Of a stretch of DNA of 64,000 nt, positions 15,239 to 40,692 are shown one piece after another (position 1 is the first letter of the stretch; the number at the start of each line of letters is the position of its first letter). This stretch comes from Physcia stellaris (Eukaryota; Ascomycota; Lecanoromycetes; Caliciales; Physciaceae). The stretch covers positions 248,001-312,000 of the forward strand of contig JABSSW010000050.1 of assembly GCA_018902385.1 (NCBI GenBank), read 5' to 3'. The notes under the pieces are model-generated. The model was given only the letters and a program-made list of their open reading frames with translations, was not told the DNA's origin and searched no databases. The translations under genes and the position numbers were made by a program.

Positions 15239-16373
15239 CTAGCGAAATTGCGTGAACTTGTTACAGAGCGGACAAACATTCACATTCTGCTTCTATCCAT
15301 TATGGCTTCTTGATACAAGATTGATAGTAGAATTCGTTAGATGTTGAATTATGTCTACAACGTAGGGCTGGCAGGCTTTGTCTACAGCAATCCACATCGA
15401 GAAAATCTACTGCCTGATTCACAGGGTCACAGTCGTGCTTGATCACAGTAGACTGGAAGTTTGACGGGAATTCCCCCTAGAGCTGATCCCAGAGTGATGC
15501 GGCCCTAAAACTAAGCCTCAGTTAGTGAATGATAAAGTAAATAGCGGAAACAGGTCACAAAACCTAGATACCTTCATTCTCGGCTTCATAACCTTCACTT
15601 AGTCGTCCAGCTCTTTGACTTGCATCACTTCATTACTCTTCCGGTGTACAGGTTACTGTTCACCGCTCCGATATCATATTCGACTCCCGAGATCTTCTCA
15701 CTTGCGTGGGCTTGTTCTACTCACACATCACGTGAAAGGCCTGTCCATACCTGGATACAGCGATAGTCGACCTGCTGGACAGGGGAGCTGATGCAGTGAA
15801 GTGGTATGCATGCTCAACCGTCAAGGCAAATGCTCGAATTTTCTGCTAATCACATTGCAGGCGTCAGTTTATTGTTGTTTTTTCTATTCTTTTCTTCATT
15901 CTTGAGAATTGATTGATTTTCGCTCATCAATTGTTGAAGGGTCGTTTCAGGTACATATCAGATTCATAGCCCTGTGGGCAAGGGAAGTCTGGCCATGCTA
16001 CTGCCAGCAGAGCCCGTGTGGATGTATTTGCTTACATAGGCGGTGCTCGCTTGCCGGGTCAGCCACCAGAGTCTCTACACAGAAGCCTTCAATGGCATCA
16101 GCTGACCGGCGGCCATCATTTGATGGCTGTAGCTTACTTTAGTCACCTGTGATCAAGTGATAGCAAGGCTTCTGAAAGTAGCTCATTCGGAAAGCTGCTT
16201 CTGAATTGATCCTGATCCGCCGAAGGATCTCAAGAAAGGTTTTCCACTGAGGAGATCAGACGGCTCGGTTTCCCCGGTCTGTTGGGAGGTGCGGGACAGT
16301 AGATACTGTTTGGACTTCAAAGATTCTTCTTGCCACAACCGGTGGGAAATGAGCCTCTTTTGGTCATATGTAT
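15239..16373. other. Intergenic up to the retroelement block
   Basis: No gene supported. It holds the promoter-like duplicate at 15790-16064 (listed separately). Composition is ordinary up to the exact start of the Copia LTR at 16374. Confidence 0.55.
15790..16064. repeat. Diverged copy of the promoter of the secreted-protein gene (copy 1)
   Basis: About 275 bp that align by eye with 50912-51198. Shared landmarks in order: GCTGATGCAG, ATGCTCANCCG, TCTGCTNNCTAG/AATCAC, ATTGTT followed by a T/C-rich stretch ending TTCTTCATT, GTACANATCA then CATAGCCC, ATGCTACTG then CAGCAGAGCCC, GATGCTCGCT-like and GGGTCA. The other copy is the immediate upstream region of the minus-strand gene 50219-50893; no matching coding copy is found here. 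Confidence 0.6.
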
Positions 16374-16517
16374 TGTAGAACTAGATGACCAATCAGGGAC
16401 CGCCAAAAGCTTAGTAACTAGTGCGCACTTCAATGACATTAAATGCTAGAAATCATGTAAATTAGCATTTCATAAAACAACATGCAATCAATGATTTATT
16501 TATTCAAAAATTTTACA
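16374..16517 (+). repeat. Left LTR of Copia element A
   Basis: 144 bp, pairs with 40549-40692. The left copy keeps more CC, CT, AG and GG than the right copy, so it was mutated less. Confidence 0.85.
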
Positions 16518-18896
16518 ATTATGAATTCGAATCACGTTTAATTGTTGCATTCAATACGTGATTTATTAAATTATCAATATTTTCAACATTCGATTGTTTC
16601 GACAAATTAACACGAAAAATCAAAACATCGCGAAAACATTTTTGTGTTTACATTTTTTTACAATCAATAACAATCAAAAATTTTTTTTATTTATTCGTTC
16701 GTTCAACACGATGACGAATACGAAACGAAAACTCAAATTGAATTTTTTCAAAAATTGAAACGCGTGATTATCAATCGTACGAATTAAAATCATCGAATAT
16801 TCGATTTGAAATTTCATCGATTCATTCAAAGATATTAAATCAATAATAAAAATTAAATTTTGACCACAACAAAATGCGAATTTCAACGAAAAACATGTTC
16901 GATACAAAATAACGACATCGAAATACAAAAAAAAAATTCAAAATTGAAAAAAACAAAAAAATTTCATGACAAAAATAATCGATCACATTTACGATATAAC
17001 AACGATTACAAATTTCAATTTTATTCAAATCGTTGAAATTCATTCATGAATCGTTTTTCGCGTTTTCAAAACACGTTTTGCATTCATCGATTCGATTAAA
17101 AATTTGAAATTGAAACAAAAATACAATCGTTTGATCAAAAATTCATTCAATCGTCAAAACATCGATATTTGAATAAACGATTATTTGAAAATATTGATTT
17201 TCGTTAAACAAACGAAAATTGTTGAAATCATCGATAACAAACGAACGTATCGTGATTTTTTACACGCAATCGACAAAATCGCATTTATTTTCGTTAAAAT
17301 ACAATTATTTCAATTAAATATCGTAACGAATCACGAAATACAATTTTTCATTTTTATCGAAATTTTTCGACATCACATGCGCATAAAAAAAATTCGAAAA
17401 AAAAAACGATATTCAATTCAACATTCGCAATTGACGAATGCGAACACACAAATCATCGAAATTTTTTTGACATTTCGTCATTTCGAAATCAAAATCAATT
17501 TCGAAATTTTTGCATTTGCGAAAAAAATCATTTTTACGACGATTGTTTTTATTTCAACGAAAACATACGTTCAAATGATTTCAAATTGAAATCAAAAATC
17601 GTGATTAAAATAAAAAAAAACGAAAAAAAAATTCAAAAAAAATTCAAATAAAACAAAACATCAAACGAATTAACGAAAAACGTCAAAAAAAAAACGATAA
17701 TAACAAAAACAAAAAAATCGAAATAAAATTTTTCGTTATCATTCACGTCAATGTCATAAAATCATTTACAAACGATTCGTTTTCGTTAAATTATTTTTTT
17801 CGTTCGTCATGAATTATGAATTACGATTTCGACATTCACGTAATCAACAACACGATAAAACAACGTTTTCAAAAAAAACGAAATTGCACAAACGAATCGA
17901 AAATTATGTTCGACATGAAATTATTTTTTATTTTGACATATGATCGAATGCGTATCAACGTCGATACGTTCACAAAAAAAAATCAATGAAATTTTTAAAC
18001 GTCAATTATGTATCAAATTTCATGATAAATATCGTCGCGAAAAACATTTTCGCAAACAAAAAATTGCATTTTGATACAATTCATGAACATTTGCACAAAA
18101 ACGATGCATCGATCGTTTTCGTATCACGAATAAAAACACATTACGTTTTCGAAAATAATAAATTTGAAAAAATGAACGTTTTCGCAATCATCGTGCGATA
18201 AAAATTTATTTTGAAATAACATCAATTTTTCGTTTATGCAAATAATGACGTCATACAACATTTACAAAAAACAATTGAAAAAATAAAATTTATCAACAAA
18301 AATAAAATGTCATTAATTAACAAATGCGAAAAATATGTTTTTTTCAAAACACATCGAATTGTATTCAAATTCTTTGTAAAATCAAAAATTTCGAACAAAT
18401 CGTTTTATCGTATTACATACGATTTCATCGATATGACAACGATTTTGAACAAACATAAATAAATATCATACGTGACATGTTTCGAAACAGATTTTCACAT
18501 GATATATACGCACAAAAACAAAAAACAAATTACGAAAATGTTTATTCGAATCATTCACATCATCGAAATTAAATACAAAAACAAAATCGTATTTGTACGT
18601 TTTGACGACGAACGCGCGTTAAATACTGTTTAAAATGATTATTGTGCATTCAAAAACATTACACATAAATCGTCGATCGTTGATATTTCAACACAAAACG
18701 ATCACAACGAACGATTAAATGATATATTGTTGATCAAATCACGAACAATGAAATTCGAAACAAATTTATTTGTTTATTTATGATCGTGAATCAATGAAAT
18801 CGTTGATTACATAATGAATCGTACATTTTTCAAAAACATGAATAAAAAATATCGTTCGAAATGATTATCGACAAGAAATCGAATTTTGTTCATATT

Positions 18897-19105
18897 TATA
18901 AAAAAAATTATGAATAATTATCATTTTATTGTTTTAAATTTCGTTATTTTTGTAAATTATATGCAGATGAAAACACAAAAAGTGTGCGAATGTCAAGACA
19001 TTAATTTCAACAAAAACGCATTAATTTTTTTTTTCGTCAAATTATATCAATTGAATTCTGATTGCAACATTTGTACAACATATTTGCGAAAATTGTATTT
19101 TAACA
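18897..19105. repeat. Left LTR of element B
   Basis: About 209 bp, clearly alike to 28764-28970 over its whole length (shared blocks such as ATTATCATTTTATTG and GCGAATGTCAAGA). Confidence 0.65.
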
Positions 19106-19195
19106 TTTTTTCACAACAATCGTTTGTGTTATTTGTTTTGTATTTTAATCAATTCAATCTGATTTAAAATTTTCGTGCAAATTTTTTCAACGACG

Positions 19196-19429
19196 TGTTA
19201 CGAGCATGTTTGACAGATAAATTTGACAAAAATTTGATAAATAAATAGTTGATATGATATGATCGAACAACGAATTATGTTTTAATTTTACGTCGAAATT
19301 AACGTGATTTGAAATTTGACGTCGCACACTGTTTGCAATTTCAACATTTTGTATTTATTTGTTTTTGCAAATTTATTGTTTTCGTTTAGTTAATCAATCA
19401 ATACAGTCATACAAGCACGACTCATGATA
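19196..19429 (+). repeat. Left LTR of Gypsy C
   Basis: 234 bp, pairs with 25651-25884; preceded by CGACG. Confidence 0.85.
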
Positions 19430-22400
19430 TTACAATAAGTTTTCAATTTTTATCGCTCGTCGTGATACGCGAACGTTCAAAAATAAAATTTCAAATCGAT
19501 CAAATTTTTCGTGAAAGACAAACGACGAAAAGTTCTTTTGACGAAACAAACGACGAAAATCGTGTAATTACAAATCGAATTTACACGCAAACGACGAAGT
19601 TTTCGACGATAAAAAACGACGAAACGACGACGATTTTTTATTTTTTTTTTATTTTTTCGAAATGATTCGCAGTTATCATGAAACAATTTCATTCAATTCA
19701 TTTCGTCAAAATTTGAATATCGACGAGATACAAGAAAACGTTGAGCAAATGCTGAACGAAATTCACGAAATCGATGAAAAGTTCACGATTCGCTACAAAT
19801 TTCGTCAGTTTTTTTTTATTTCGAACGTTGTGTCGAATCAGAACGACGATGTCACGTATTTTTTGAACATAAAAATCGTTCGTCAATTGAAATATTGAAT
19901 TCAACATCATTTCGACGACTTTTTGAACGTGTTCAATGATTTACGCATCGATCGAAACAAATATTTGATCGTTTTAGAAAATTTTGACGAATTCGTCAAG
20001 TTGTTCAAAATTCAAAAAAAAAATTTATTCGATATCGATAATATTTTTGAACAAATACGCGACAAACTTAAAACGTTCGAAAAAAAAAAAAAAACGAATG
20101 ATGAATCAATTCGTTGACAAACGTATTGAATATGACGATTTGATCAAATTGAATGAAATTCGTCGTTTTGAACGTGTTTTCAATTTCGATTCAAATGAAA
20201 ATTCAAACAACATCGATGATGACGAAAAAAAATCTGTTGTTGACGATTCGATCGTTACAAATTTTGTCAAATTTTCGAAAAAAAAACGCACGAACAAGCA
20301 TTCGAATTTCGATAAATTCACGAACGATTTGAATTTTGATTGATTTACATGAAAAATCAACGTTCACGATAAATTCACGATCAACAATGATTGATACGAA
20401 ATTGTTCGTTTCATGATCACGACAATAATTGACTGAATTGAAAAAAAAACAATTAAACATATTCAGTTTCGTCGATACAACAATTTGAATTATTTCGAAA
20501 ATGAAATAATGATGATCAATTTTTTCGAAAACATTTATGAAAATTCAAATCATCAACGCAACGTACGTCGAAAATATCGAGATTTGATCATGTTCGACAT
20601 TCAGAATTTTCAATTTTTTTATTCGAATTTTCATCGTTTGAATATTCAAATCAATTTCGACGAATTCACGTTGATGAATGATTTGATTGACAAATTCATC
20701 ATGTCGTTGAAACAAATTTTGAACAATTCGTTTCGTCATTATTTCATTTTGTTCGCGTGAAAAAATGACATTCAACAGATGTACAACGATTTGATTAATA
20801 TTCGAAAAAAAAAAATTCGCATTCGAATTCAAAAATCAGTTTTCGTGATTTTCAAATCGATTTTTGCTGTTTCGATTGCAATTTCGTTTGTCAAATCAAT
20901 TACGTCGACGTTTTTCGTCAAGTTCAAAAACGATCATAAACATGATTCAATCATCGATCAATTGATTGTCACGAACAAATATTTCACGTGTGAAAAACTC
21001 GATCACGATTGAAAGTTTTGTTTTAACGTCAACAAATTTCAGAAACGTCAATGACATAAATTACAAATATATCAATTGAATTTTGATATCGATTCGAGCG
21101 AATTTGATTCGAAAAATTGACAATTCACGTCAAAAACGCGATTGATGAATGTTTAAAAATTTTTTTTATTCACGATGATAATATGTTTGATTTTTTCATC
21201 AAACGATTTTTAGTCATTATTTGTACGTTATCATTCAACGATAATAAACATAGATTAAAAATTTTAATAGACATTGATGCAATCGATTATGCGTTCATTG
21301 ATAGAAAAATCGCGCAATTTGTGTGCAACATGCTGAACATGAAATTCGTATTTTTATTGAAATCGAAATCATTGATTGAATTCGATGATCGTCATGTTTT
21401 TTTTATAATTCACGCGATATATTTCAAGTTGACGATAAAATTACATTTCGAATTGATCGCTTTTTTGCTAATCATTGATTTCGATAATCATTCGATAATT
21501 TTAGAAAAGTCGTGAATGAACAAACATGAAATTATATTGAACATGATTTACGATAAATTGATTTTTAAATCGTTCAAATGCAATTATCACGACAACATAT
21601 TCAATCAAGTGATGCAAATTCGTCGTTTAAAAATTTTCAAATCAAATCGTCGATGAAATATATTTAATTGACGTCGCGATGCAAAATTATCGCCGAAAAA
21701 TAATACAGAACACATAGCGACGATAGAATTTCGATATATCATTTTGTTTCGTTTCAAAATCAAATTTTTATTTTTTATTGTTGAAAACGAATCAAATATA
21801 ATCGACTCGAAATGTTTCGAATGTTCAATTCATTCAGAAATCGATATCGACGACGAGTCGTCAACAATCGAATCAAATAATTCAGAAATTGATATTACGA
21901 CTGTTACGAAAACGACATTCGTCAAAAAAAAAAATTGAAAAATCAACGTAATAAACGATGAAAGACGAAAAAACAACAATCAAAATTTTCGTTATTTTCA
22001 AAATTGAATTCTGACGATTCGATGAATATCGCAATGATTGATGCAATTTTTTTTTGTTTGTTGATCGATGTCAAAAATCGAAAACAAAAAATTCAATGTT
22101 TTTTCATTACGATCAATCAAATCGATTTCGCGTTCAAAACATTACAAACGAATTTTGAATCGTTAAAAATCGTCGTCATGATCAAAAAAACTTTAAAACA
22201 CGAACAAATCAAATCGATATTCGAACGCATAATGAAAAAAATGTCAAAATATTTTCGTCATTTATCAAAAGTATTTGATTTTCAAAAAATTATCAAGTTG
22301 TTTTTTCATAAATCATACGATCATAAAATCGAATTGTTGAACGATAACAATTTTTTGTTTCGCAATCGAATGTATTTTTTATTCGAATTCAAACTTAGAA

Positions 22401-25400
22401 AATTGAAAAAATATTTGAAAAAAAATTTGCAAAAAAAATTCATCGTATTTAATCAAACGACATATGTTTTTTTTGTTTTATTTGCGATCAAATTCAACGA
22501 TCAATTACGTTTGTGTGTGAATTATCGTCGATTCAATCATATCACGAAACGCAATCGATATTTTATTTTTTTGATCGAGAAAATTTTGATTAAAATTCAA
22601 AATTGCAAATATTTGATCAAACTGAATATCATATCGATTTTCAATAAATTTCGAATGAATGAAAAAAATGAAAAATTCATCACGTTCGTCATTTCTATGA
22701 AATCGTATAAATATCGAATATTATTTTTTGAATTAATCAACGATTTTGCAAGTTGACAACATTACATGAATGATTTTTTGTTCAATTTTCTGAACGAATT
22801 CTGTTAAATTTATTTGAATGACATATTCATTTACAGTAAATTCAAAAAAAAACATATCGTGCACGTTCGAACAATACTGAAAAAACTCAAAAAAATCGAT
22901 TTACAAATGAATATCGAGAAATGCGAATTTTTCAAAAAAAAAATGACTTTTTTAAACGTTATATTTTCGATGAATGATTTTCGTATAAATTCAAAAAAAA
23001 TACAAATCATAATTGACTGAGCACGTTCTATCAATTTCAAGAAAGTACAAATTTTCGTGAATTTCGTCAATTTCTATCGACGTTTCATTCGTGATTTTTC
23101 GAAAAAAATCAAAATTTTCATTCGAATGATCAAAAAATTCGTAAAATTCGAATGAATTACGAAAACAAAAAAAATTTTCAATTTATTTAAAAAAACGATG
23201 ATCGAAATTTTCATATTTCGTCATTACGATAAAATCAAACAAATCATTTTGAAAATCGATTTTTCAAATTACGTTAATGCGAAAATGTTATCGCAATACG
23301 ACGACGAAAAAATTTTACATTTCGTTGTTTTTTACAATCGAAACATGATTTCAATCGAATGCAATTACGAAATTTATGACAAAAAATTATTGATCATTAT
23401 TCGTTGTTTAGAACATTGACGTTTAAAATTCGAAAACATTGACGAATCGATCAAGATTTTCATCAATCACAAAAGTCTGAAAATTTTCATGATTTCGAAA
23501 AAATTAACTTTTCGTCAAATTCGTTGAACAGAAATTCTATCGAAATTCAATATCGTCATTCAATTTCAATCAGAAATTCAAAACGTTAAAACAAACGTTT
23601 TGATTCGCATATCGAATTCACGATTTAAAAACGATAACGACGAACGACATCAATATAAAAAACAAATGTTGTTCATTTCGAAACGATTCGAAATTCATGT
23701 CGTCGAATTTGACGAATCAATTTACGAACGAATTTTCGTCGTCAACAAAACAAACGACGATTGTCGAACATATCGTGAAACATTCAATCAAAAATTCATT
23801 TTCGTGAACGAAATTAATTTACGCGATTGTCAAAAAAAAACGATGTTTTATATTACAAAAATCGATTATGAATGTTCGTCGATGTTTTTTTGCTCGTTAA
23901 TTTTTTCAAAAAAATTCATGAATTTTCAACGTCGAATCATTTTGAATTTAATCGTATGAAAAATTTTTTACGTCGTGATTATTATTGATTCAACATGCGC
24001 AAAACAATTCGTCGATACGTACGTAATTGTCACGAATATCAACGAATTAAAATTTTCAAAAATCGTAAAAACGAATTATTCATTTTTTTGATCATATTTT
24101 TGCAACGTTGAACGAATATATTCATTGATTTCATCACGAAATTATTTGACGTTCACGATCATAATGTTATTTGCACGATAATCGACAAATTTAATAAAAA
24201 ACGTCATTATGTACTTTGTACAACGAAAAACGAAAACACGAATGTTGAAATCACAGCAAAAATATTCATTCAATACGTGTTTCGTATTCATAATTTGCTT
24301 TTTTTCATAATATCTGATCGAAATTTTCAATTCGTTTTTTTCGTATGACAAGTTTTTTGCAAAATTTTCGACATCAAATGTAAATTTTTCACGATTTTTC
24401 ATTCAAAAATTGATGATCAAATCGAAAAAATCAATCAAAATATCGAAAAACAATTGCGACAATATTGCAATTACATACAAAACGATTGAAACGTTTGATT
24501 ATTTATAATCGAATTCGCAAACAATAACGCAATTTTTGCATTCATTGAATTATCATCGTTTTTCGTCAACAAAAATTTTCATTTTCGTATGAATTTTTTA
24601 TCGAATTTTATTTCGTATGTCATCACAAAAAAACGATTTTTGATCGTTAAAACGAAAAACATCACGAACACAATGCAAAACATTTTCGATTATGTACGAA
24701 TTCACGTCGAAATAATTCAAAAACGTATGACGATACAAATCAACAAACATCGCAAAATCGTGAAATACGTCGAAAAAAATTACGTTTTTTTGAATCGACG
24801 AAACATCAAAATCGTTAAATCATTCGACAAGTTTGATGACAAAAAATTGATTCATACAAAATGTTAAAACGTATGAACAATTTTTATCAATTGAATTATT
24901 TGAAACAATGCGAATTTATGATGTGTTTCATTGTTGATTTTTGCGCAAAAATTTTGTGATTTTTTCGAAAATCAAATCAACGAATTTTTCGATTTCGTTG
25001 TAATCAACGAGAATTTCGAATGAAAAATGAACGATATTTTAAAGTTTCGATATCATTACGATCGTTTTCAATATCGCGTCAATTGATCAAATTGATCGCA
25101 TGATCGAACGTGATATTACGTCGATAACGATGAATTCGATAATGTTCGTGACGTGATAAATAATTATCATCGAATTCATTTCATCGTCGCAAACTCGAAA
25201 TCGTTCAAAATTATTTTTTTCATTTTTCAGATCGATGATCAAAATTCATCTGCGAATCGTCGTCGCTCTCGAAAAAAAATTGTCGTTCTGATATTCATCG
25301 AAATTACGTTCGATTAAAATCAGAAAATTTCAATTGAATTTAAATTCATTTTGATTTCATTCATTCGTTTCAGAACTTTTTTTTTCAATTTCAAATTTCA

Positions 25401-25650
25401 CTATCATCGTTTCGACGTTGTTTACAGTCAGAATTTACGTCGCATAAAGAATTGAATCGTGTCAAAAACATTTTCAGAAATTGTTGTTCGATTTTATTGA
25501 ATTGTGAATTGATGCAACATATTGAAAAAGTCAAAAAATGATGATCGTGAAAATTTCGAATTTTGAATTCGTTCAAGACAATCGATAACGTTTTCGATTC
25601 GAATCAACGACGAATCGTCGAAACGACGTTCGCGAAAAAAAAAAAAATAA

Positions 25651-25884
25651 TGTTACGAACATGTCTGACAGATAGATCTGACAGAAATCTGACAGATAAA
25701 TAGTTGATATGATATGATCGAACAACGAATTATGTTTTAATTTTATGTCGAAATTAACGTGATTTGAAATTTGACGTCGCACATTGCTTGCAATTTCAAC
25801 ATTTTGTATTTATTTGTTTTTGCAGATTTATTGTTTTCGTCTAATTAGTCAATCAATACAGTCATACAAACACGATTCATGATA
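25651..25884 (+). repeat. Right LTR of Gypsy C
   Basis: 234 bp, pairs with 19196-19429; followed by CGACG. Confidence 0.85.
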
Positions 25885-26574
25885 CGACGTAATTTTTAAA
25901 ACTTTTTCAACGATGTAATTTTTTCAACGATACGTTGTTTGAAATTTTCGAACAAATTTTTTCAATGCGATGAGTTCGATGCGAAAATTGCAAAATCGAA
26001 CGAATCGAAATTCGATGATTTATTGACTTCAAATATAACGTAAAATCGATTTGTAAAACGTGCGATCGAACATTTAAAAAATTGCGACGTTTTGAATGTT
26101 TCGACGAAATGAAACATCGATGTGAAATCTGATATTTGAAATTTGTTAAAAGATATTTCATGAAACAAATATTTTATATTTGAATTTTGCGATGACGAAC
26201 GAAAATGCAAATCACATCATATAACATCATTGTGAATTTCAGAATTTTCAAACATTGTTTGCGACATCAATGATCGAATATTCATGCAATTTGATTGTCG
26301 AAAATTCATAAAATATGTCAACAATGTGAATCAAACAAAAAATGATCGAAAAATCGATAAAAAAAATAATGCATCGAATGCGAACAAACTTTTGCGAACA
26401 TACATCGATGCAAAAAATGCAAATTCGAATTTTTCTGATCTGACTAAAATCTGTCAGAGAATCGAATCGATTAGTATGCGAAAAAATCAAATATTTTCAA
26501 TTTTTCTTGATCGAATTTTTGTTTTTTTATTGATCGAATTTCTGATTTGCAAAATCGAAATGTAATTTTCGATA

Positions 26575-26760
26575 ATACGTTTTCGAAACGATTTATGTGA
26601 CTTCAAGTCGTATCTGTACAATACGTTTTCTCGAAACGATATTGATTTGACTTTTTTACGAAATTGTATAATACGTTTTTCGACGTCGTACTATTTAGTC
26701 TGTTCGTTTTTCTAACGTACAATACGTTTTTTCGAATTGTATTGTCATTTTCTTTTTTTC
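26575..26760. repeat. Short dispersed motif array inside element B
   Basis: Four to five copies of a TACAATACGTTTTTCGA-type motif at irregular 40-60 bp spacing, sometimes followed by its partial reverse complement. Could be a subterminal repeat of element B. Confidence 0.5.
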
Positions 26761-28410
26761 GTATTTATCGAACGACTAAGTTTCAAAAATAATAATAAAA
26801 AAAACGATAATTAGTCGTGTTAAATCAAGATCAAATCACAACAAAGATAAATTTTTATCATATTCGTTAAACAATAAAACAAATAAACAAAACATACAAC
26901 AATTTGTAAAATTTCTTCAAATCACAAAACGAAAAAAACGAAACATCGAATTCATTAAAAACAATAACAACAACTTTTATGTTTTTTCAAATCATGATCG
27001 ATCAACGATTAATAAAATAAAATGAACGAACAAAACAACAAACAAACAACATGTTAATTTCTTCAAAATAGTGATTTCAAGAAAATCAATATTTTTTCAA
27101 AATAAAACGAAAAAAAACAAAATTTCAATAACGTTGTTTCATGAATATTTTATTGTTTTCAACTTTGAAAACATTTGACATGATTCAATCGATAAATCGA
27201 TAAATGACAAAACGTTTTTGACAATGTTTGCAAACAAAAAAAAACGCGAAAATGTCGAAAAAGAAATGCGTATCGAAAAAGAAAAAAATCGAAAAATTCG
27301 CGAAAACGATATGCGAATCGACTGTTTGATCGAAACATGTATTGTTAAAAATGTTTCGAATTTGATCGATTTAAAAACAAATAAAATTATCGCATAAAAA
27401 TATAACGTAATGCGACTTTGTATGAAATCACATTTGTTTGCGAAATTGCATTTTTCAAAATCGCAAAAAGAAAACGAACGCATTTGATGTCGTTGCAAAT
27501 CAAATAAATTCGATTTCTCAACGAACATGCGATAAAAATCATTCACGATCAAATAAAATCTCGATGATGTAAACGTTCGAAACGAAATAAACGAACAAAC
27601 AATGTTTGCATTTTTCAAAAATTTGCATATCAATTTGAATGTCGCAATCGAGAAACGAAAAAATTTCGAAACGACAATTGATCGTGAAACAATTTTTGTT
27701 CAAAATATCGATTTTTTTGATGTTGCAATCAACGAAAAGTTTGAAAAAGAAATAATTAATGACGCGATTATTGATTTCGATGACGAAAAAAATGATACGT
27801 TTTCTGAACGTTCGCGTGCAATTTCTGATGTAAAAATCGAAAAAGATAAAAGTTTCGACGAAAAAAAAAAAAATTATCGATTCAAATGACGAAACAAAAA
27901 AAATAAAAAATGAAACAATTGATTTCGAAATTTGCAAAGAAAATGAAACAATTGTTTTCGACTTTTTGACGTGACGAATACGAATATGTTCGTGAAATTT
28001 GATGTTGTTATCGAATTTGATCGAATGTTTGCAACGTTTGCACGTAAATTTTTCTGTTCGTTTCTTGATCAAACGAATTTCTTTTTGTTGTTTCAATAAT
28101 TTTTTCGTTTTTTGTTTGATTTTGTTTTTCATTTGCAATTCGTGTTTACGCACAAGATATTTTTTTTGTATTTTTTTGACTTGAATGAATCAAACGCATT
28201 TTTGATTGATTTGATTTTTTTAATGTTGTTCGTACAAAAATCGAAAATCATACGTTATTGATTCATTCGAAAAAATGCAAATGCAAAAAAAAAATGATTA
28301 AAAAAAAATCAGAACGAATTCGAAAATGAACGATGCGAAATTCGCAAAAAAAATACGAATCGTCATTTTGATTGAATAAAATTCGCGTAAAAATTCGAAT
28401 AAATATACGC

Positions 28411-28540
28411 GAATTCGTAAAATATTCGTAAGAAAATTTCGATAAATAAACGAATTCGTAAAAAATTTCGATAAATAAACAAATTCGTAAAAGATTTCGA
28501 TAAATAAACGAATTCGCGAAAAATTCGTACGATAAATAAA
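28411..28540. repeat. Tandem repeat near the right end of element B
   Basis: About four copies of a 28-30 bp unit of the type AATTCGTAAAAAATTTCGAT followed by AAATAAACG. Confidence 0.6.
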
Positions 28541-28763
28541 ATGTTCGAAAGTTGATTTGTATTAAAATATTGAATGTTGTTAATGCAATTGAATCAATTC
28601 TGATTTGACAAGATTGAATATTTTCAATGAAATTGATTATTGTTGAAATATTGCAAATCGATTGTTGTATTGTTCGACGATTAAATATTATTGCGTTTCG
28701 TTTTATGACATGTTGTAATTAATATTAAATGTAACGAAAATTGTTAATTCGATTTTCATAATC

Positions 28764-28970
28764 TATTAAAAAATCATGAATGATTATCATTTTATTGTTT
28801 TGAATTTCGTTATTTTTGTAAGTTACATGCAAATGAAAGCACAAAAAATGTGCGAATGTCAAGATATTAATTTCAACAAAAACGCATTAATTTTTCTTTC
28901 GTCAAATTATATCAATTGAATTTTGATTGTAACATTTGCACAACACATTTGCGAAAATTGTATTTCAACA
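28764..28970. repeat. Right LTR of element B
   Basis: About 207 bp, pairs with 18897-19105. Copia traces restart right after it. Confidence 0.65.
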
Positions 28971-30212
28971 ACATCGTTCAATATGAAACAAAAACATATT
29001 TTCTGAATAAAAATATTTCGAAAAAGAAAAAAATGAAAATCAAAACACATATCGACTTTTTTGTAAATTATAACAACATCAACATTTTTTTGATTTGAAT
29101 TTTTAATCAACGAAAAATTATACGTACACGTGATATTACATTCAACGAAAATTCACGTTATCGTTTTAACGAAATAAATTTAATTCAATTCGTCAACGAG
29201 ATTTTTTTTATTAACGATACGTTTGACATATCGCAAAACGATTTCACGAAAATAATGAACATCGAATCAAACAACGACGAAAATGTATGAAAATTAACAT
29301 TTACAAAATTTATTATCGATCGCGATGCAAAAAAATTTCATAAACAAACGATTGAAAACGATTTTGAATCAAAATATTTATTTTCATTTGTTTCATTTTC
29401 GTTAAGAAATGAAAACACGTCAAATACGTTTGATTTTTCGTCATTTGTCGTTACAGAAAATTTCTCGTCATTTGTCGTTGCAAAAACAATAAAAAAATTA
29501 TTTTCGTTTGCATCGTCGTTGAAAAAAAAAATCGAAACATTGAACGAAAACAACGATTGACGAAATCAATATTCAATTTGAAAAATTCATTCGTATTCGC
29601 AAATCAAATTCGTTTCGAAATTTCAATCATTATATCGTTTTAAAAAATGCGTTCGCAAAAAAAATGCGTTCATTTTATAAAACATTCATGATTTCAATGA
29701 CGAAAAAAAAAATCGCATCGTGACGATTTTTTCGTCGAATCACGTTTTTATTATCAAATGTTCAAACATTTTGAAATCGTCGAATTTTTACGAATTATTG
29801 ACGTGAAAATCAAAACATTACAATCAAAACAAATTTGAAAAAAATTTCATAACATCATGTCAAAAACGCAAAAAAAATTTCAATATTTATCACGTGAATA
29901 TTCAAATACAAATTCGACAATGAAAAATAGAACACTTCCTATAAAAAAATGTCTATCGTTCCCTCTACAAAAAGTTTACTACCTTATTGGGTTAGACCAA
30001 TCTTGGCGAAGAACATCAAAGTTTTGGTGCAATCTTTTCGCACATTGCACACCAACCAAGAACTTGATATGATTTTTGTCTATGTAGTCAAAGTTGTAGA
30101 GTTTAATGAGGGGAATCCAATACTGTAACGTTTGTTGAATTCTGACGTGGGCGCATCGAGTTATTGAAATGCGGAGTTTTGATCGCATACAAATTGATGG
30201 ATTCGGGGTTCG

Positions 30213-31758
30213 ATGATCCAAACACCAACAACAACATCAACTTCAACTCCATATCAACTCAACCACGAGAATTTCAACGAATCCCAACAAATCATGCAGC
30301 TGACGTTGGATTTAGGCCTTCCTACTACGGCGCGTTCGCGTGGTGCAGCAAATCGCCATGCCAAAGAGCGAGAGAAACGGGGTGCTCTCCAGAAACTTAC
30401 TCCTACTTCTACGTCTACCTTTACTTCTGCTGCTGCATCGATCGAAATCAGCGCTCCCTACGAATGTCATTCAATGACTGTTACACCTCAAACACCCGTC
30501 GAGTTTCGAGAGCCTCACTACACAATCAATGGCCGAAATGGAATGACGTTGGATAGACAAGAGCCTGGAATCTATCCGGTCCCACAGCCAGCTATTATTC
30601 AGGATCAATGACTAAAGCACGTCCCATGTTTGACGTTGCATTCGATGTTTCAAAGGTTAAGACACATACGCGTTCTCAAGTGGAATCACAGCAAAAACTG
30701 CTGCAAAAGGATCAGGAAGCTTGGGAGGGTCAGATCTTTCAATACTTTTGGCGATTGGAACGATCTGAAATCATACGAATCAATGGAGAACTTTCTTCGG
30801 ATCTCGAATATCGGTTAGGACTGTCTGGAGGGGCTTTGTTTCAAGAGCATTTTCGTTTTCAACCTTGGACGGAGCGTTCTGTATGGAGTGGTTATGCTCA
30901 TTGCAAATTCAAGAAGTATTACTCTCCTCTTTCTACGGCTGTTCGAGCCAACGATGAGGAGAAAATTCGCTTGCATATGAGGGAGGAAATAGTCAGACAT
31001 AGCAGTCGTTTTCTTCTCAAATCGTTGACGAAATACGCCTGCAATGCGATGCAAAGAAAGAGATGGAAACTTGATCCTCCACACAATATCCCAACCCCGA
31101 AGAAGCTCAACTTGCAAAGGATATCAAGCGGGCGAAAAAGGCGAACGAAAGAGTGAAAGCGGAGGCAACAAGAATAGAAAGGGAAAAGCATTCAGCTTGG
31201 CCAGACGAGCCGGACGATTCTGATGAGTCGGACGATACATATATGACCGACGAATCGATCGATTCTGACAATCGTTCTGACGACGACGAGGGAGTGCAAT
31301 GGAGCGAGTTGGTTGAATTGAGAACCGAAGCAGACGAGCATAAATGGAAGCAAAAAAGAGAGCTTTACTCGAGTATGCCATGGTCGATATAACCTCCACG
31401 AATTGCCCTCTTCAGGCCGAATCGACCTCCACCAAATGCCTTATCAAATGCTCCACCGAATGCTCCACCAAATGCCTCAGCAAATGCCTCACCGAATGCC
31501 TCACCGAATGCCTCACCGAATGCCTCACCGAATGCCTCCATGCGCGGATCACTTCCGCAGGCATACACCGATGCAAAGACTGCAGATTCGAGCTTTTCGA
31601 GCCTTAATAAGCCAGAAGACCTCGCTGGAGAAACAGGCCCGATTTGTATGGCATATTCTCGATATCTCTGCCGCAGATGGCCAGGCCAGTCAGAATTCTG
31701 GGACCAGCATATGTACATAGTATCCAGAATGGCCAATATCAGGGCAAATCTATCCTGA
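30213..31758 (+). pseudogene. Unrecognised gene carried by the TA-bounded island, broken
   Basis: Plus-strand coding traces cover most of the island interior, in adjacent frames with about three interruptions. In order they show: a Thr/Ser/Gln-rich, probably disordered N-terminus with a basic run (ANRHAKEREKRGALQKL); a compact, well-folded-looking block (WEGQIFQYFWRLERSEI, WSGYAHCKFKKYYSPL, SSRFLLKSLTKYACNAMQRK); an acidic Asp/Ser stretch with DDTYMTDESIDSDNRSDDD; a run of Asn-Ala-Ser-Pro tetrapeptides (31430-31540); and a Cys/Trp-containing C-terminus (CRRWPGQSEFWDQHM). I see no DDE triad, integrase, helicase or recombinase signature. It is either an unknown transposase-type protein or captured host sequence. 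Some interruptions could be unrecognised introns. Confidence 0.45.
31430..31540. repeat. 12-bp tandem repeat (NASP-coding)
   Basis: About nine units of the type AATGCCTCACCG; the last five are perfect. In the plus-strand frame of the island gene they encode Asn-Ala-Ser-Pro. Confidence 0.85.
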
Positions 31759-33048
31759 TACCCTATTGCGCTATACCCAATCGAGAACCATGATATGCTT
31801 CGAAGATATGGTCAAATGACTGCAATTTCTGCAGTTCAGACTCCATGCCTGGCATTGAGACCCCCAGTTATGGACTTCAGATTTGCGGCACTCTTTCCCG
31901 ATTTAGCTAGCTCAGGGTCTACTTGGCGGCCAACCACCAAAAATGTAGTTTGTTGTTGCAGTTGATTTACAACCTGCACATCAATCAGCAATCAAGTATA
32001 ATTTCCACTTATCTAGCCAGGATTGTAGAGCAGAATGAGCGCATTCCAATGCTGCAAAAATAACAGAAATCGGTTCATTATCGCAATAGTTCTGGGGCTT
32101 GAAAGGTCATGCTAGAAATGTTTTAGAACAACTCCGCAACAACGCCTGCGAAGCAACAATGCCATATCCACCATAACTCAATGCGCACTCGCTCGATTTT
32201 CGATATTTTTGATTCTTTGAATAGTACTCACTTCGTGCTTCAAAACAAGCCTTCGAGTGTATGGTTTACTTACTGGGTTAAGAAGCTATTAAGGTGCGAA
32301 ATCGATGAGATCGCAAGGGACCCTGATTTCGTAATCTTATCAGATTTGACCCTAACCCTAAGAGTTCTCGACAAAGTTTTTTTAAAAAAACTTCCGGGCC
32401 TATGTTTGTATTTAATAAAATATAAAATTAAATTGTGTGTTCGAAAAAATTTTTAACAAATCGAACAAAATGTTTACGCAATTACATTAATTATTAAAAT
32501 TTTTCGAACATTAATAATCATAATTACAATTTTCGATTTGAACAATTTTTTTCGATATGACGCAATCAATGCATTCGCAAATAACGATATTAACGAATTC
32601 ATTTATTGCAAATCGTTTGACGATTGAAAAAAAAAAAAAAACAATATGTTTATTTTTTTATTGAAAACATTATACGAATTGAAACAATTTTGACATTATG
32701 ATATCGACATTTGTCGATTACTTTTAACAATTTAAATTTAAAACAAATGTTCGACATTGAATATTTATTCATGAACGATTACATAATTGTTTTTTTTTTC
32801 GTGAACGATATAACAATCATGTATTATTTTTAATATTTCAAACAAATCGACGTTTTCGAAAAACTTTTTTTCGAAACATACGAAATGAAAAACATCGACG
32901 AAATCGAATAATTTTTCAATATTCGTATTACACGCGATAAAAAACAACAAACAACGTCGTTTTGTCAAAACAATTATATCGACAAATTAAATCAACAAAT
33001 TCAAATTGACATGATGAAAAAAATCAAAATTATTTATAAAATTCGTAT

Positions 33049-33368
33049 TGTAAGAGATAAAAATTCAGAATTTTCGAAAGTGCGATTCGCATTCCGTCAA
33101 GCAATTCGATTATCGAAATTCGAATGATTTCGAAAAAAATCAATCTCAATCATTTTACAATTCGATCAACGATAAACTCAACAAGTTCATATTGTCAATC
33201 GAAATCGCTCGAATTCGTACGATTGAATAAATAGAATGTGAATAAAAAGCAATTGCAAAACGTAGTCTGTTCTGTAACGATTAATAAATCAATATATTAC
33301 ATCTCAAATTATACATTTCTGATGTCAATAATTCATTAAATTATATTATTTCTAGTACGAATTTTACA
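33049..33368 (+). repeat. Left LTR of Gypsy D
   Basis: 320 bp, pairs with 39366-39685. Confidence 0.85.
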
Positions 33369-36300
33369 TTTTAATCGTTATCATATTTCAAAATGATGTC
33401 ACTCGTGTATATTTAACAGAATACAGTTCTGTTGTCTCGCATACATCATGTCGAATTTTGATAATGATTTGCTTTTTGAATTTGTCGAGAATGTTGACGT
33501 ATTTTTCTGATTGATTTATTACAAACAACAAATCGAAAAAAATCATAAAAGAGAAATCAAACTGCAAACTCGAAATACTGAACGTTCGAAATCTGTAATT
33601 TTTATTTTATTTATTTCTGTTTCTGATTCTGTCTGAAAGTCTTTCGTCATGAAAACTATCGAGACGACATCGAATCAATATGAAAAAAAAAATTACAAAA
33701 AGTGAAAAAAATATTGCAAACAAATGAAAAATCAATTCACGCAAAACAACGTGAATCACATGATTCAATTTTCGAATTTAGTCAAGATCGCATACGTTGA
33801 TATTTATCTTAAATCAAATAGCAATGCGAACAAATTCTGAAACGTAAAAATCGATTTTCATTCAAACAAGCAATACATTTGAAACGAATTCAAAATCTTT
33901 TTGAAAAACGACATCGAACGAACAATCACGTTGCAACAGAATTTCTTGAGAAAATATCGCAAACACAAACAAAATCACAATCAATCGATTAAAAATTACA
34001 ATGTCGAACAAATAAATATGTTTGTTGAATTGAAATTCGAATTCAAACTCACGAAAGCAATGAAATTCAACGATTTTCGTGACGAATTACGAATTACGTT
34101 TGAAATTTCGTTGCATGTTTCTTAAAAAAAAAAATTCTCACAAAGACGAAATTGCTTGAACGACTCAAGCGTATGAAAAACGTTCAAATTTTGAAGAAAA
34201 AACTCAAGAATTTCAAAAAGCGTAAAATCTCGTTCGATATTGACAATTTTGAAAGCAAAAACGAAAAACTCAAAATTGCGAAAATCAAAAATAAAAAAAT
34301 CAAAAATACTAACAAGATCAATTCGAATCACGAATCAATCAAATCGAAAAATATTCGAATGTATCGCTGATTCGTCAGCGAATTCAAAAAAATTCAAAAC
34401 AAAAATAACTGTATAAATTGTGACAAATCAAATCATCAAATCGAAATTTGCACAAACAAAAAAAACAAAATCATTTTCGTTGATTAGATTTTTGAGCAAT
34501 CAAAAAACTAATCGATTTGATGATTTTCGTTCAAATCGTTAAAAAAAAAAAATTTTCGAATTTCGATTTCGATACGTCGTTCTTTTCAAACATGAGCAAA
34601 AATCATGTTAACAAAAAAAAAAACGACGCAAAAAGTTTAAAAAATTAATGATTCGTAAGTGCGTCAAAATCAAAATTAACATACAAAACGAAAACAAAAT
34701 TTGAAATGAATCGAAAACAATACTCGATACAAAAGCGAAAATTAATTTGATAAATCATGTTTATGCGAAAAAATTGAATTTTCGTCGTTTTGAAACTTTA
34801 AACTGTGATGCAATAACAATTGACAATCATCGTTTGAAAACGTATGACGTTTATTTCGTACAATTCGAAATGTCAAACGTCAAAAAAATTAATCGCTTTT
34901 TCGAAAAATCGTTTTTGATCGTGAATTTGAATTGAAATTTAACGTTAAACATGTTTTGAATACAATTTTCGAAAATCAAAATGAATTGAAACGACGACAA
35001 TATCAAAACTTGACGTTGCAAAAAAAAACATTTCATTTTCATCACATGTCGTATCGAAAACATCGAATCAAAACAATTGATCGAAAACGTCATCGATAAC
35101 GAAATCGAAACGTATTTCATGTTCGTACGAATGTATATTGACAAGCAATTCGACATGCATGAAATACATATTTCAAAACGAATTCAAATAGAGTTTGCTT
35201 TGATTGAAATGAAAAAAAAACTCGATATCAAAATCATTTTTTTCGATATCTTAAAAACGTATGAAAAATTCGATAGCGAAAATAAAATTTACGAATTATC
35301 GAATCATGATTCAAACGATCATGTTATTGATTTAAAAAAAAACAAAAAATCGTCGCATGAATCAATTTATTTTCTATTCGAGAATGAGTTTCGAATATTG
35401 CGTGTTTACATCGAAAAACATTTAATTAACGATTTCATTCGATTTTCACAATTTTTTGCAAAAACGTTCATCTTGTTCGTCAAAAAAAAAAACGATAATT
35501 TACGATTATGCGTGAATTACAAAAATTTTAATGCTTTCACGATAAAAAATAAATATTTTTTATCGTTAATCGATGAAAATTTAAATAAATTCACAAAGTC
35601 GTCAAATATATCAACATTGACTTGATTGCTGCTTATCATCGATTGCGTATCAAACATAAAAACGAATGAAAAACAATTTTTCGTATTCGATATGATCATT
35701 TCGAATATAACGTATTTTTTTTCGATTTCATTAACGTTTCGACGACGTTTCAAAATTTCATCAATAAAATTTTAACGATTCGTTTCGATATTAACGTCAT
35801 TGTATATTTGAATGATATAATAATTTATTCGATGAACGTCGAAATTCATGTCGACGATGTCAAATGAATTTTTGATCGTTTTAAAAAAAAAAATTATACA
35901 TTGTTTTTGAGAAATACAAATGATTCGCTGACGAAATAAATTTTCTTGAATTCGTCGTTTTTTTTCAAAAAATAAAAATGCAAAACAAAAAAATCGAAAT
36001 TATTCAACAATAATTAATATTTCGCAACGTTTTCGACATCATGCAATTTTTCGACATCGCTAATTTTTATCGACGATTCATTAAACATTTCAATAAAATT
36101 GCTGAATTTCTGATCGCTATGTTAAAAAAATCACAAAAATTTCGAAAAAATATTCGTAAACGCAAACGAAATCAAAATCGAAATCGCAACAAATCATCGA
36201 ATATTCACATTTTTCTGATCAATGAAACGTTGAAAGTTTTCAAACGATTTCGCAAAACATTTATCGAAACATCAATTTTACGTCATTTCGATTTCGAGCG

Positions 36301-39300
36301 CGTTATTCGAATCGAAATCGACGCATTCGACAAAATTTTTGAAATCATTTTATGTCAACAAAACGACGAAAATCACTGACATTTTGTTGCGTATTTTTCG
36401 CGCAAATTGATTTCGATCGAATGTCATTACGAAATTTATGACAAAAAATTGCTGATTATTGTGATTTCGTTCAAGCAATGAAAACACTATTTCGAAAACG
36501 CAAAAAAACAAATTTTTGTTTTTATTGATTATCGCAATTTGAAACAATTTATGATCACAATTAGATTGTCGTCACGTTAAATTCGATGAATTCAAAAATT
36601 GAATCGATATAATTTTTTAATCGATTATCGTTTCGATAACAAAAATTTTGCTGACGAATTTTCAAAACGATTTGATCACATGACGATTATTGAAAAAAAC
36701 GTCGAAAACAATCGTCAAATTTTGAAACAATTGCAAAAATCATTGATCGCAAATTCGAAACGTTTCGAAAAAATGCGAATAAATGCGATCAAAATCATGA
36801 ATGCGATGCATGTCATGAAACGATTCATGAATGCGATGCATAACATGAAACGTCGATCGCATTTAAATGATTCAACAATCGAATCAATCAACGTTGTTTC
36901 GAAAACATTTGATTCAAAAAACTCAAGACGAGATCGAATTTCAATCAACGTTGTTTCGAGAACATTCGATTCAAAAAATTCAAAAAATTCGAAACATTCG
37001 ATTGAACAAAAGTCAAACGTGACATTTATAAAATGAAAAATTTTTGTGTTAAAATCAGCGATTGTATTTGAATGCGCAATGCATAAAATTCGAATACAGA
37101 TTGCTTTACGAAAAAAGACGACATATAACGACGAGTCAACATTTTCATTGTTGAATTTCGTTCGTGATTTGATCGTTAAAAATCAGTTCGTTTCTGAAAT
37201 ATGTCGAAAATTAATTATTTCGAGAACAAAAACAAACAATTGACAACACAAAAATGAATTTTTGTATTACGACGATGTCGTTTACATTTCAAAAAGTTTG
37301 CGTGAAAACGTTATTCGTGCACATCACGATAATTCGTTCGTTGATCATTTCGACATCGAACGAACGTTGAAATTGATACGTCGAAAATACTATTGATCGA
37401 ATCAAAATTTTATCGAAATTTTTGAAATGCGACAGCAAATTAAAAAACATTGTGAAACATGCGTCGTTTACAAACGAAACAAAATTGCACGACACAAATC
37501 ATACGACAAACTTTTTTTTTTTTCGATTTTTGAATTTAAGTGAATTGATTTTTTCATGAATTTCGTGACAGAATTTTTTTCAAATAAAACATGAAATGAA
37601 ACGATTTACGATTCGATTTTAATGATTGTGAATCGTTTAACGAAAATGATTTATTACATATCAATAACTAAGACGATTTTCGCAAAAAATTTGATTGAAA
37701 TTTTATTTCGCGAAATCATTCGATTTCACGATTTTTTTTCGTCAATCGTCATCGACAAAAATTTCATTTTCACGTTCAAATACAACGATGCATTGTGTTA
37801 CGTTTTGAAAATCAAACGTAAATTGTCAATCGTTTTTCATTTTCAAATCGATGAACAAATCGAACGAATGAACAGCGTCATGAAACAATTTTTTCGCGTT
37901 TTTGTCAATTTCGAGCAAAATGACTGAATAGAATTGTTGTTCATGATCGAGTTCGTTTACAACAACAACAAACATACATTCACAAATATTTTTTCGTTCG
38001 AAATTATGTTTGAATATTCATTTCGCATGTTTTTCGAAAAAACATGAAACAAAAAAATTAAATTCAAATTCGCAAAAAAACACGTTGAACATTTAGTTGA
38101 ACTATTTCGAATACTGAAAAACAATTTATTCGTGACACAACAATAACAAACGATGTATAAAAACGAACGCACGAAATCAATGTCATACAACGTCGAAAAT
38201 TACGTGAATTTGAACGATAAAAACATCAAAACTAAACGAAACAAAAAATTGAAATGAAAATTTTTTGAATCATTTCAAATTTTAAAAATTATAAAAAATC
38301 AAACTTATCGTTTAAATCTACTCAAACGTTGACGCATTCACGACGTTTTTCACGTTTTTTTTCTGAAAAAATTCAATTTTAAAAAAGAAAAAAACGCGCA
38401 TACGTCACATTTTTCTGAATTTTTCTATCAAGTTGAAAATATTGAATTCGACGAAAACATGAAAATGAAAATTACGAAAAAATTTTATGAAATCGAAGTC
38501 ATCAAAAACAGCAAAATTTTCAAAACAAATGAAATTTCAAACAAATTTTACAACGAATTCGATTTTTATTATTTCGTGAAATGAAACAATTATGAAAACG
38601 CGACTTGAAAATTTGCATCGTTTGTCAAACATTTTCGAAAAACTTTGCGACAATTTCACAACGAAAATTCAAAAAAATTTGATGTCAATAAAAAAACAAA
38701 TCATCGAAAATCACGAAAAAAATGAATTGAAATACTTATTGCATGTTAACACATTTTCGTTTTCAAAAATTCTGTGTGTTATTTACTGTTTAAAATTTAC
38801 GACGCATGAAAAGCTGAATTGTGTCAAAAACATTTTCAGAAATTGCTGTTCGATTTGATCGAACGATGAATCGTTGAATAAAAAATGTGAAATGAAATAA
38901 ATAAAAATTTCGAAAATTTGAATATCAATGCGATCGCGATTAATGAACGTTTATCGCGTTACACATTTTTTCATGATATCGATGTTGATATTCGAAATAA
39001 AAAAATGAAAAAATGAAAAAATGTTCGAATTCAAAATTTTTTGTCAACAAATCAATTGTCAATCATCATATCGAAAATTGTGAATGATACGAAATCAAAC
39101 ATTCGATCATGAAAACAGCAAACAATTGATTCATCAAATTATGTTTTTTCTGAATCATTCAAAAAGATGTTTTCTCAGATTTTTAACGCAAATTGATTAT
39201 TGAATTCGAACAAAAATATTTCGAAATGCGAAAATCACGATCATAGTGATTTTTCAAGTCAATGCAAAATCAAGACAAGCAAAACACGTCAAGACAAACA

Positions 39301-39365
39301 AAATACGTCAAAATCTTTGTTAACATGTTGATTTCAAGAAATTTCGATGCTTAAAAAAAAACGTA

Positions 39366-39685
39366 TGTAAAAAATAAAAATTCAAAATTTCCGAAAATGC
39401 GATTCGCATTTCGTCAAGCAATTCGATTATCGAAATTCGAATGATTTCGAAAAAAATCAATCTCAATCACTTTACAATTCGATCAACGATAAATTCAACA
39501 AATTCATATTGTCAGTCGAAGTCGATCGAATTCGTACGATTGAATAAATAGAATGTGAATAAAAAGCAATTGCAAAACGTAATCTGTTCTGTAGCGATTA
39601 ATAAATCAATATATTACATTTCAAGTTATACATTTCTGATGTCAATAATTCATTAAACTATACTATTTCTAGTACGAATCTTACA
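39366..39685 (+). repeat. Right LTR of Gypsy D
   Basis: 320 bp, pairs with 33049-33368; Copia RNase H traces follow at once. Confidence 0.85.
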
Positions 39686-40548
39686 CATATTTCGATGATA
39701 AAAAATGAAAATAATGTTATTTTTCAAAAAATTCATATGTATCAACAGAAAATCGAATCAATTAATTTCGTTGCAACAATCATTCAATCAAACGTGATCG
39801 TTGTTGCATCGTTATTATTTGAATATTTTACGAATTCATTTAAACATTATGCGAAACAAACGATTCGAACGTTAAAATATTTGACACACATCAAATATTA
39901 CGTCATCGTTTACAAAAATCAAACAAATTATATAATTATCATTTTTTTAATTTCGTCAAATGCGTCATTCGCAAACGATTTAAATATTTGTCAAAATTCA
40001 AATGAATATTGTTTTATGTTTTTCGACGATTTCATCGATTGAAAAATCACAAAACAAAAAACAATTACAATTAATTTCATCGAAATCGAATTGTTGATTA
40101 TGTCAATGATGATCAACATCAAAATGTAATAAAATCGTTTTTTTGAATCAATACAAATGAACATGAAAAAATTCATTCACATTCAATGCGATAATCGTCA
40201 AATTATACGAACGTTTATTATGTCATCGATCAAATTAATCATTAAATTACGTTATGTCGATATATATCGTCATTGATTACGTCAAAAAATGCAAAAAAAC
40301 ACGATCAACATTCAATGAATTTTTACAACAAATATTTTGATCGATGATTTCATCAAAATTTTATCATTTCAAAAGCAAAAAACATTCGTGAAATTGATTG
40401 ATTTAAAATTTATTTCGATATCAAAATCAAAAAAAAACAACGAATTCGATCAATCAAAAATCGAATAAATCGCATCATGAATCACATCGAAAAATGAATA
40501 AAACATCAAAAATAAAACGAAATATCAAATATTTTTTTAAAAAAAATG

Positions 40549-40692
40549 TGTAAAATTAGATGATCAATCAGAAATCGTCAAAAATTTAATAATTAATGCG
40601 CATTTCAATGACATTAAATGTTAAAAATCATGTAAATTAACACTTCATAAAACAACATGCAATCAATGATTTATCTATTCAGAAGTCTTACA
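40549..40692 (+). repeat. Right LTR of Copia element A
   Basis: 144 bp, pairs with 16374-16517, followed by the target duplication TGTAT and then normal-composition DNA. Confidence 0.85.

Follow-up and report, generated by a model that had tools for sequence, protein, structure and literature searches.

RIP in Neurospora crassa is reported to act on cytosines in the order CpA > CpT > CpG > CpC, and that of Trichoderma reesei to prefer CpA and CpG over CpT over CpC (PMC5496416). Amselem et al. (2015) described signatures at CpA, CpT and CpG, with CpT leading beside CpA in Magnaporthe oryzae and one strain of Botrytis cinerea; the CpT signatures in transposons of M. oryzae, B. cinerea and Sclerotinia were tied to RID-class enzymes (PMC4352252). 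In alignments of control fungi capable of RIP, CpT is also named as dominant (PMC7882544). In basidiomycetes, hypermutation is placed at CpG or TpCpG, as in Microbotryum and Rhizoctonia solani AG8 (PMC4014442, PMC4352252); among the four SNP classes tabulated for R. solani AG8, CpC occurs most often, at one per 214 bp against one per 370–491 bp for the others (PMC4014442). Badet and Croll, surveying 1,239 fungi, concluded that a CpA preference is common to RIP-like defences (PMC12543289).

The lichen fungus Physcia stellaris, for which the accessible text of the genome paper holds no discussion of RIP (PMC7513301), very probably possesses a RIP-like defence of a different kind, in which a C in repeats becomes T (or, on the opposite strand, a G becomes A) only before a pyrimidine, with CpC as the foremost target and CpT as the next, while CpA is affected very weakly and CpG scarcely if at all beyond ordinary divergence. 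The species is a strong exception to the shared CpA preference, in that CpC leads and the common indices are negative. As in the RID-dependent RIP of N. crassa, we find C-to-T change on both strands, confinement to repeats, a strong mutational load and class I methyltransferase genes; unlike there, the order is CpC > CpT >> CpA, CpG being about level with CpA, and many near-identical copies of one repeat persist. C-to-T change in duplicated DNA is common to P. stellaris and T. reesei, but CpC leads in the former and comes last in the latter. CpT is hit as in Magnaporthe, Botrytis and Sclerotinia, yet CpA is a main target there too and the accessible text reports no CpC signature, whereas P. 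stellaris is CpC-led and nearly spares CpA. With R. solani AG8, P. stellaris shares C-to-T hypermutation and the high frequency of CpC; the bias named by its authors is CpG, however, and the SNPs lie between nuclei and also in genes, whereas mutation in P. stellaris is confined to repeats and hardly touches CpG. Cladonia rangiformis is likewise a lichen fungus; its AT-rich repeats have sharp boundaries, and it has RID and DIM-2 homologues. Its mutated DNA, for which the accessible text gives no target context, peaks at about 16% GC (PMC12542154), and the 73 windows of 500 bp below 30% GC in P. stellaris average 26%. The literature searched, Clutterbuck's 2011 survey excepted, records no CpC-first RIP in Pezizomycotina.

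The window analysed here is a 64,000-nucleotide stretch of P. stellaris contig JABSSW010000050.1, and all feature coordinates are counted from the first base of this stretch; the genome searched comprised 43.97 Mb in 147 contigs, the published assembly of P. stellaris #10-5 being larger (46.57 Mb in 184 scaffolds, PMC7513301). An earlier note, made from the letters of this stretch alone, had proposed that a RIP-like process targets CpY and keeps CpG intact, and had rightly placed the DNA in Pezizomycotina, P. stellaris belonging to the Lecanoromycetes, Caliciales. Dinucleotide counts delimit two unstranded hypermutated blocks, the first (16518..29929) consisting of nested retroelements and depleted of CpY, the second at 32409..40548. 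The first block (13,412 bases) contains 2 CC, no GG, 94 CT and 123 AG, as against 922 CA, 711 TG and 860 CG, corresponding to observed/expected ratios of 0.008, 0, 0.148 and 0.184 for the former four and of 1.245 for CA and 3.6 for CG. Its counterpart holds 2 CC, no GG, 103 CT and 96 AG versus 590 CA, 420 TG and 480 CG, with ratios of 0.012 (CC), 0 (GG), 0.27 (CT), 0.23 (AG), 1.22 (CA) and 3.3 (CG). Over 200 mononucleotide shuffles of 16524–29929, CC+GG never fell below 376. The window flanks and the island between the blocks (29930–32408) are near expectation. The full count thus bears out the depletion that the earlier note had read from single lines, and its tally for 17161–17340 (10 CA, 15 CG, 6 TG and no CC, CT, AG or GG) was exact on recount. 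Mutation of the UV type strikes a C located after a pyrimidine; it was considered and set aside because TC lies above expectation in the block (observed/expected 1.5–1.6) and the effect of the 5′ neighbour is small.

The hypermutated DNA has the architecture of a nest of LTR elements, with 144-bp LTRs at its ends and pairs of 234 bp, 320 bp and about 210 bp inside, all on the plus strand. The left LTR of the outer retroelement (16374..16517), recognized by its TG..CA ends, the target duplication and a taper of mutation, is unmutated in its outer half, and the right one (40549..40692), placed by LTR alignment, is unmutated at its outer end; the pair is framed by the 5-bp target duplication TGTAT at 16369–16373 and 40693–40697. 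LTR pairing and family alignment define a nested element with LTRs at 18894..19106, where CA mutation is raised, and 28759..28971 (ends approximate in both). Alignment identifies a further nested element, with 234-bp LTRs at 19196..19429 and 25651..25884 and the target duplication CGACG at 19191–19195 and 25885–25889. The 320-bp LTRs at 33049..33368 and 39366..39685 bound an element of about 6.6 kb, both being supported by their pairing and the left one also by a genome-wide family. Pfam scans revealed no domain in four ORFs of the block, in four ORF readings of the island or in a 298-aa ORF of an outer-element copy on contig C8; therefore we name the elements by their LTRs only, and the label Copia used by the earlier note is not confirmed. 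A search of viral_contigs for relatives of the 298-aa ORF yielded three pattern matches, none of them confirmed.

Comparison of the LTR pairs largely supports the proposed context. All changes between the 144-bp LTRs are at CpY, as the earlier note had claimed for those it checked, although they number 21 (16 CT, 5 CC) and not some fifteen. The 320-bp pair behaves alike, with 16 CT, 2 CC and 1 transversion, and the 234-bp pair differs at 15 CT and 1 CG besides the single CA already noted as an exception. The pair at 18894–19106 and 28759–28971, absent from the earlier note, runs in part counter to the proposed context, with 9 CA, 6 CT and 6 transversions. Summed over the four pairs as aligned, the differences amount to 53 CT, 7 CC, 10 CA, 1 CG and 9 transversions, and nine of the ten CA changes belong to this one pair. 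Two of the nine transversions fall beyond the true 144-bp LTR. In the family of the aberrant pair (12 further copies and the two of the window), 152 of 182 CT cells are mutated, compared with 58 of 490 for CA and 28 of 167 for CG; these proportions mark CA as a weak secondary target. Genome searches with the 320-bp LTR and with the outer 144-bp LTR were scored for the best 40 of 208 and the best 40 of 75 candidates, respectively. Twelve copies of the 320-bp LTR, aligned over 300 bp, are polymorphic in 32 of 32 CT columns, 5 of 33 CA columns and 2 of 34 CG columns, three columns bearing transversions having been left out.

The direction of mutation was polarised against natural unmutated copies and not against a consensus. 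For the outer retroelement, the reference was the copy on contig C8 at 898,969 (locus L034), in which GC amounts to 48% across 1.5 kb and CC and CT are at normal levels. Among 30 loci fetched, 21 with internal sequence on the side used, the window's own included, were compared; L012 and L025 were dropped for poor alignment, leaving 19 scored copies. With both strands folded, C was changed to T at 2222 of 2358 CC sites (94%) and 3109 of 3677 CT sites (85%), but at only 359 of 3501 CA (10%) and 260 of 3849 CG sites (7%). As in RIP, transitions from C:G to T:A dominate in these copies: C to T affects 39% and G to A 50.5% of sites, and each other change at most 2.8%.

The central part of the island serves as the natural unmutated reference for a second family. 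The island is an unstranded repeat insertion (29930..32408) identified by its genome matches and its border profile: CC+GG, counted per 100 bp, jumps from 0 to 9 where the island begins on the left and drops from 11 to 0 where it ends on the right. These abrupt borders accompany an insertion that took place after the surrounding DNA had been mutated. Six diverged copies of the family show C-to-T change at 827 of 871 CC (95%), 790 of 1064 CT (74%), 93 of 1197 CA (8%) and 70 of 1014 CG sites (7%). Four of the copies form a dose series, in which CC, CT and CA have reached 97, 52 and 2% (L057), 95, 62 and 2% (L058), 98, 90 and 7% (L059) and 100, 98 and 22% (L060), with CG at 3–5% throughout. In L057 the underlying counts are 153 of 158 CC, 99 of 192 CT and 4 of 215 CA, and this copy has acquired 12 transversions over 1,586 bp; L026, a lightly hit copy of the outer element, has a comparable profile (CC 116/129, CT 104/200, CA 3/189). 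The CpY context is thus upheld by two polarised and two column-based repeat families.

The target order is CpC > CpT >> CpA, with CpG hardly or not above ordinary divergence. The CT fraction exceeds the CA fraction in all 25 scored copies of the two polarised families. Rates derived from the raw fractions make CpC about 3–5 times faster than CpT, and CpT faster than CpA by about 39–51 times in L057, L058 and L026 but by 15 times in L060. CpA is struck weakly and late; its loss reaches 22–23% in L060 and L022, the two copies in which most CA has gone. In the young copies CpG is at background, because L061–L063, which are not hit, also differ at 2.3–4.5% of CG sites. CG values are elevated in older or more diverged copies (13–14% in L065 and L066, with 44–45 transversions; 17% in L008, with 92 transversions; 11% in L022) and locally towards the 5′ end (19/76 at 50–100 bp and 88/523 at 400–600 bp; 17–25%), and older divergence or quirks of the single reference copy are the likely cause.

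As expected for a RIP-like process, mutation is restricted to duplicated DNA. Counting into the outer element from its 5′ end, 7 of 171 CT sites are mutated within the first 50 bp, 36 of 114 at 50–100 bp, 85 of 133 at 100–150 bp and 217 of 265 at 150–250 bp (4, 32, 64 and 82%); the corresponding values for CC are 43/152, 22/37, 33/38 and 72/76. The fade hence spans about 150 bp inside the border, as measured at the 5′ end. Beyond it, in the pooled 1.5 kb upstream of 19 copies, CC, GG, CT and AG are normal at all distances (CC observed/expected 0.87–1.04), and the window flanks are normal as well. This comparison is one of composition, and one of the 19 pooled flanks, that of L021, is itself AT-rich.

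The defence is leaky, intermittent, rare or recently idle, and not as thorough as in Neurospora. With the central 1.6 kb of the island (1,601 bases) as query and the best 40 of 67 candidates scored, the matches listed number 42, of which at least 22, the window's included, are 93–100% identical over at least 1,591 of the 1,601 query bases; the remaining listed matches show 69–81% identity or are short. Copies at 93–100% identity cannot have been heavily hit, so the process must miss many targets, be rare or have been idle of late, and the efficient removal of near-identical duplicates known from Neurospora is not observed. Four such copies were fetched besides that of the window. L064 is 99.8% identical to the island; L061–L063, about 3% diverged from it, differ at 2–5% of CC, 2–4% of CT, 1% of CA and 2–4.5% of CG sites, so these three were not hit. 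A further point against the RIP-like reading is that strand-wise runs of mutation, which would have supported a processive single-strand event, gave no consistent signal on permutation (p = 0.023 in 1 of 14 tests, at least 0.06 in the other 13). Since repeat restriction and the transition spectrum agree with RIP, whereas the CpA hallmark (CA 8–10% against CC 94–95%) and a Neurospora-like efficiency are lacking, we speak of a RIP-like process with inverted context.

Genes that may account for this process are present in the genome. A search with the PF00145 profile gave matches at four places, which represent three genes, two of class I (RID/Masc1 type), both intact, and one DIM-2-like. The latter carries PF25423, a BAH domain below the cut-off and an ENV triad. 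The long class I methyltransferase, on contig C5, has 932 aa as annotated and the motifs PCQ and EQT, and matches G7Y79_00005g016670 at 99%; the short one, on contig C6, has PCQ and EET, comprises 513 aa after excision of two introns whose positions were set by homology, and retains the last motifs. Among relatives of the short type, EET was found in 26 of 29 matches, 3 being unread; for the long type, the best 120 of 303 matches listed include 114 with EQT, 2 with EET, 2 with ENT and 2 unread. A methyltransferase tree separates the short and long types, but, as long branches may meet in it, it does not serve as strong evidence. Heterodermia carries both the EQT and the EET type, and the pair is therefore probably older than Physcia. 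EQT is recorded for Neurospora, Ascobolus and Podospora and EET for Botrytis, and RID-type enzymes are described as having an unusually short target-recognition region (PMC6709928); P. stellaris provides a natural contrast for what sets their target dinucleotide. Both RID/Masc1-type proteins and the DIM-2-like protein are candidate catalysts, and we hypothesize that the EET type is the CpY enzyme. In the probable RIP-like mechanism, repeats would be recognized by homology as in RIP, mutation would take place in the sexual cycle, and the catalyst would be a C5-methyltransferase of the RID/Masc1 class with altered specificity for the 3′ neighbour.

The same class of enzyme and the same restriction to repeats would also be expected if CpY sites in repeats were methylated in a MIP-like manner and the 5-methylcytosines then deaminated in the ordinary way over time, with no active mutagenesis. 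Fungal 5-methylcytosine can occur outside CpG, and the DIM-2-like gene likewise fits. Slow decay, however, should add other substitutions, whereas L060 has lost 154 of 154 CC and 182 of 186 CT sites while differing from the island, over 1,568 bp, by 6 transversions and 3 transitions in the reverse direction. The same figures show that the process is fast, far above the pace of neutral change, and we judge passive decay to be unlikely, although it is the best placed of the alternatives to an active RIP-like process.

A cytidine deaminase of the AID/APOBEC type, acting on repeats or on reverse-transcription intermediates, could be invoked because retroelements are targets and CC is also attacked by APOBEC3G. 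APOBEC3G would, however, mutate the second C of CC, and the context of AID/APOBEC enzymes is governed by the 5′ neighbour. In P. stellaris, among 608 CCR trinucleotides (8 copies), mutation has struck the first C 593 times and the second 43 times; it is the 3′ neighbour that decides, whereas the base 5′ of the target matters little for CC and CT (NCT 0.56–0.72 in six less-hit copies). Moreover, both strands are mutated, C to T and G to A. The position of the mutated C, its context and the action on both strands make a deaminase highly improbable; a search with PF08210 (APOBEC_N), which returned no match in the genome but likewise none in 14 control genomes, carries no weight here.

Equally little weight can be given to an assembly artefact, that is, to nanopore base-calling errors at methylated CpY in repeats. 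The assembly is indeed nanopore-based and repeats are difficult to polish, but it underwent two rounds of Illumina polishing (PMC7513301), and strand-specific errors are not expected to saturate both strands. In addition, of the 187 CT sites common to L057 and L058, 73 are in different states in the two copies, which argues against a fixed, sequence-dependent error and indicates that copies were hit at least partly independently. The association of CT sites between copies is weakly positive in all 21 pairs from the two families (odds ratios 1.4–6.3, p < 0.05 in 11).

RIP indices were computed in 1-kb windows with the looser cut-offs printed for The RIPper (product ≥1.1, substrate ≤0.9), for which a substrate value of 0.75 is recommended (PMC6714961), alongside a CpY index devised here, (CC+GG+CT+AG)/(CA+TG+2CG), that scores a 1-kb window as depleted below 0.35. 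All 40 1-kb windows of the blocks (25/25 and 15/15) are CpY-depleted and none (0/25 and 0/15) is positive for canonical RIP. Twenty genomic samples of 4 kb, taken at 100 kb on ten contigs of C1–C15 and at 300 kb on ten of C10–C28, contain 16 CpY-depleted and no canonical-RIP windows among 140, and 76 loci, mostly from repeat searches, contain 141 and 0, respectively, among 391. That the classical CpA pathway operates here, with the CpY signature stemming from base composition or from an ancient different process, has next to no credibility despite the presence of RID/Masc1-type class I methyltransferases, since canonical indices are positive in 0 of these 391 windows and CA has changed at only 2% in L026, L057 and L058 while CC has reached 90–97%.

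The earlier note knew of no Pezizomycotina RIP with a CpY preference, and this holds in so far as no CpC-first or CpY-only RIP was found in the searchable literature, outside which the Clutterbuck 2011 survey lies; CpT signatures as such, however, are in print (PMC4352252, PMC7882544). A process that leaves CpA and CpG nearly intact escapes CpA-based indices. We therefore raise, quite tentatively, the possibility that a second specificity of RIP exists in fungi, one that recognizes a 3′ pyrimidine and may be carried by the short EET-type enzyme found beside the EQT type in lichen fungi; if so, surveys relying on such indices have underestimated RIP. The two contexts also differ in the stop codons they can create: CpY mutation produces a stop only from Trp (TGG to TGA), and CpA mutation additionally from Gln codons. 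Inactivation of elements by the CpY process should hence proceed mainly by missense change.

Most copies of the island repeat, a sequence of ~2.4 kb at 29930-32408 that lies unmutated between the hypermutated blocks, at present avoid mutation. Its central part occurs in 22 copies that share 93-100% identity. The repeat harbours a 12-bp tandem array (~31430-31550), and a telomere-like ACCCTAACCCTAA stretch is located close to its right end; in the ORF readings tried, no Pfam domain was found. With the central part as reference, the mutated copies L057-L060, all from one family, can be arranged as a graded dose series; they carry very few substitutions of other kinds, and the series is helpful for ranking target preferences.

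Mutation of CA, the weak secondary target, affects 7 of 35 sites in the left LTR of the nested element (18894-19106) compared with 3 of 35 in its partner (28759-28971), and 10 of 35 in L082, a locus of the same LTR family.

Two LTRs of the outer family, L034 and L027, are devoid of mutation and lie 5.1 kb apart on contig C8 (C8:898969-904105). Judged by these ends, a full-length unhit copy may therefore coexist with heavily hit ones.

Physcia encodes class I methyltransferases of both the EET (L001, contig C6) and the EQT type (L003, contig C5), and both types are also present in Heterodermia.
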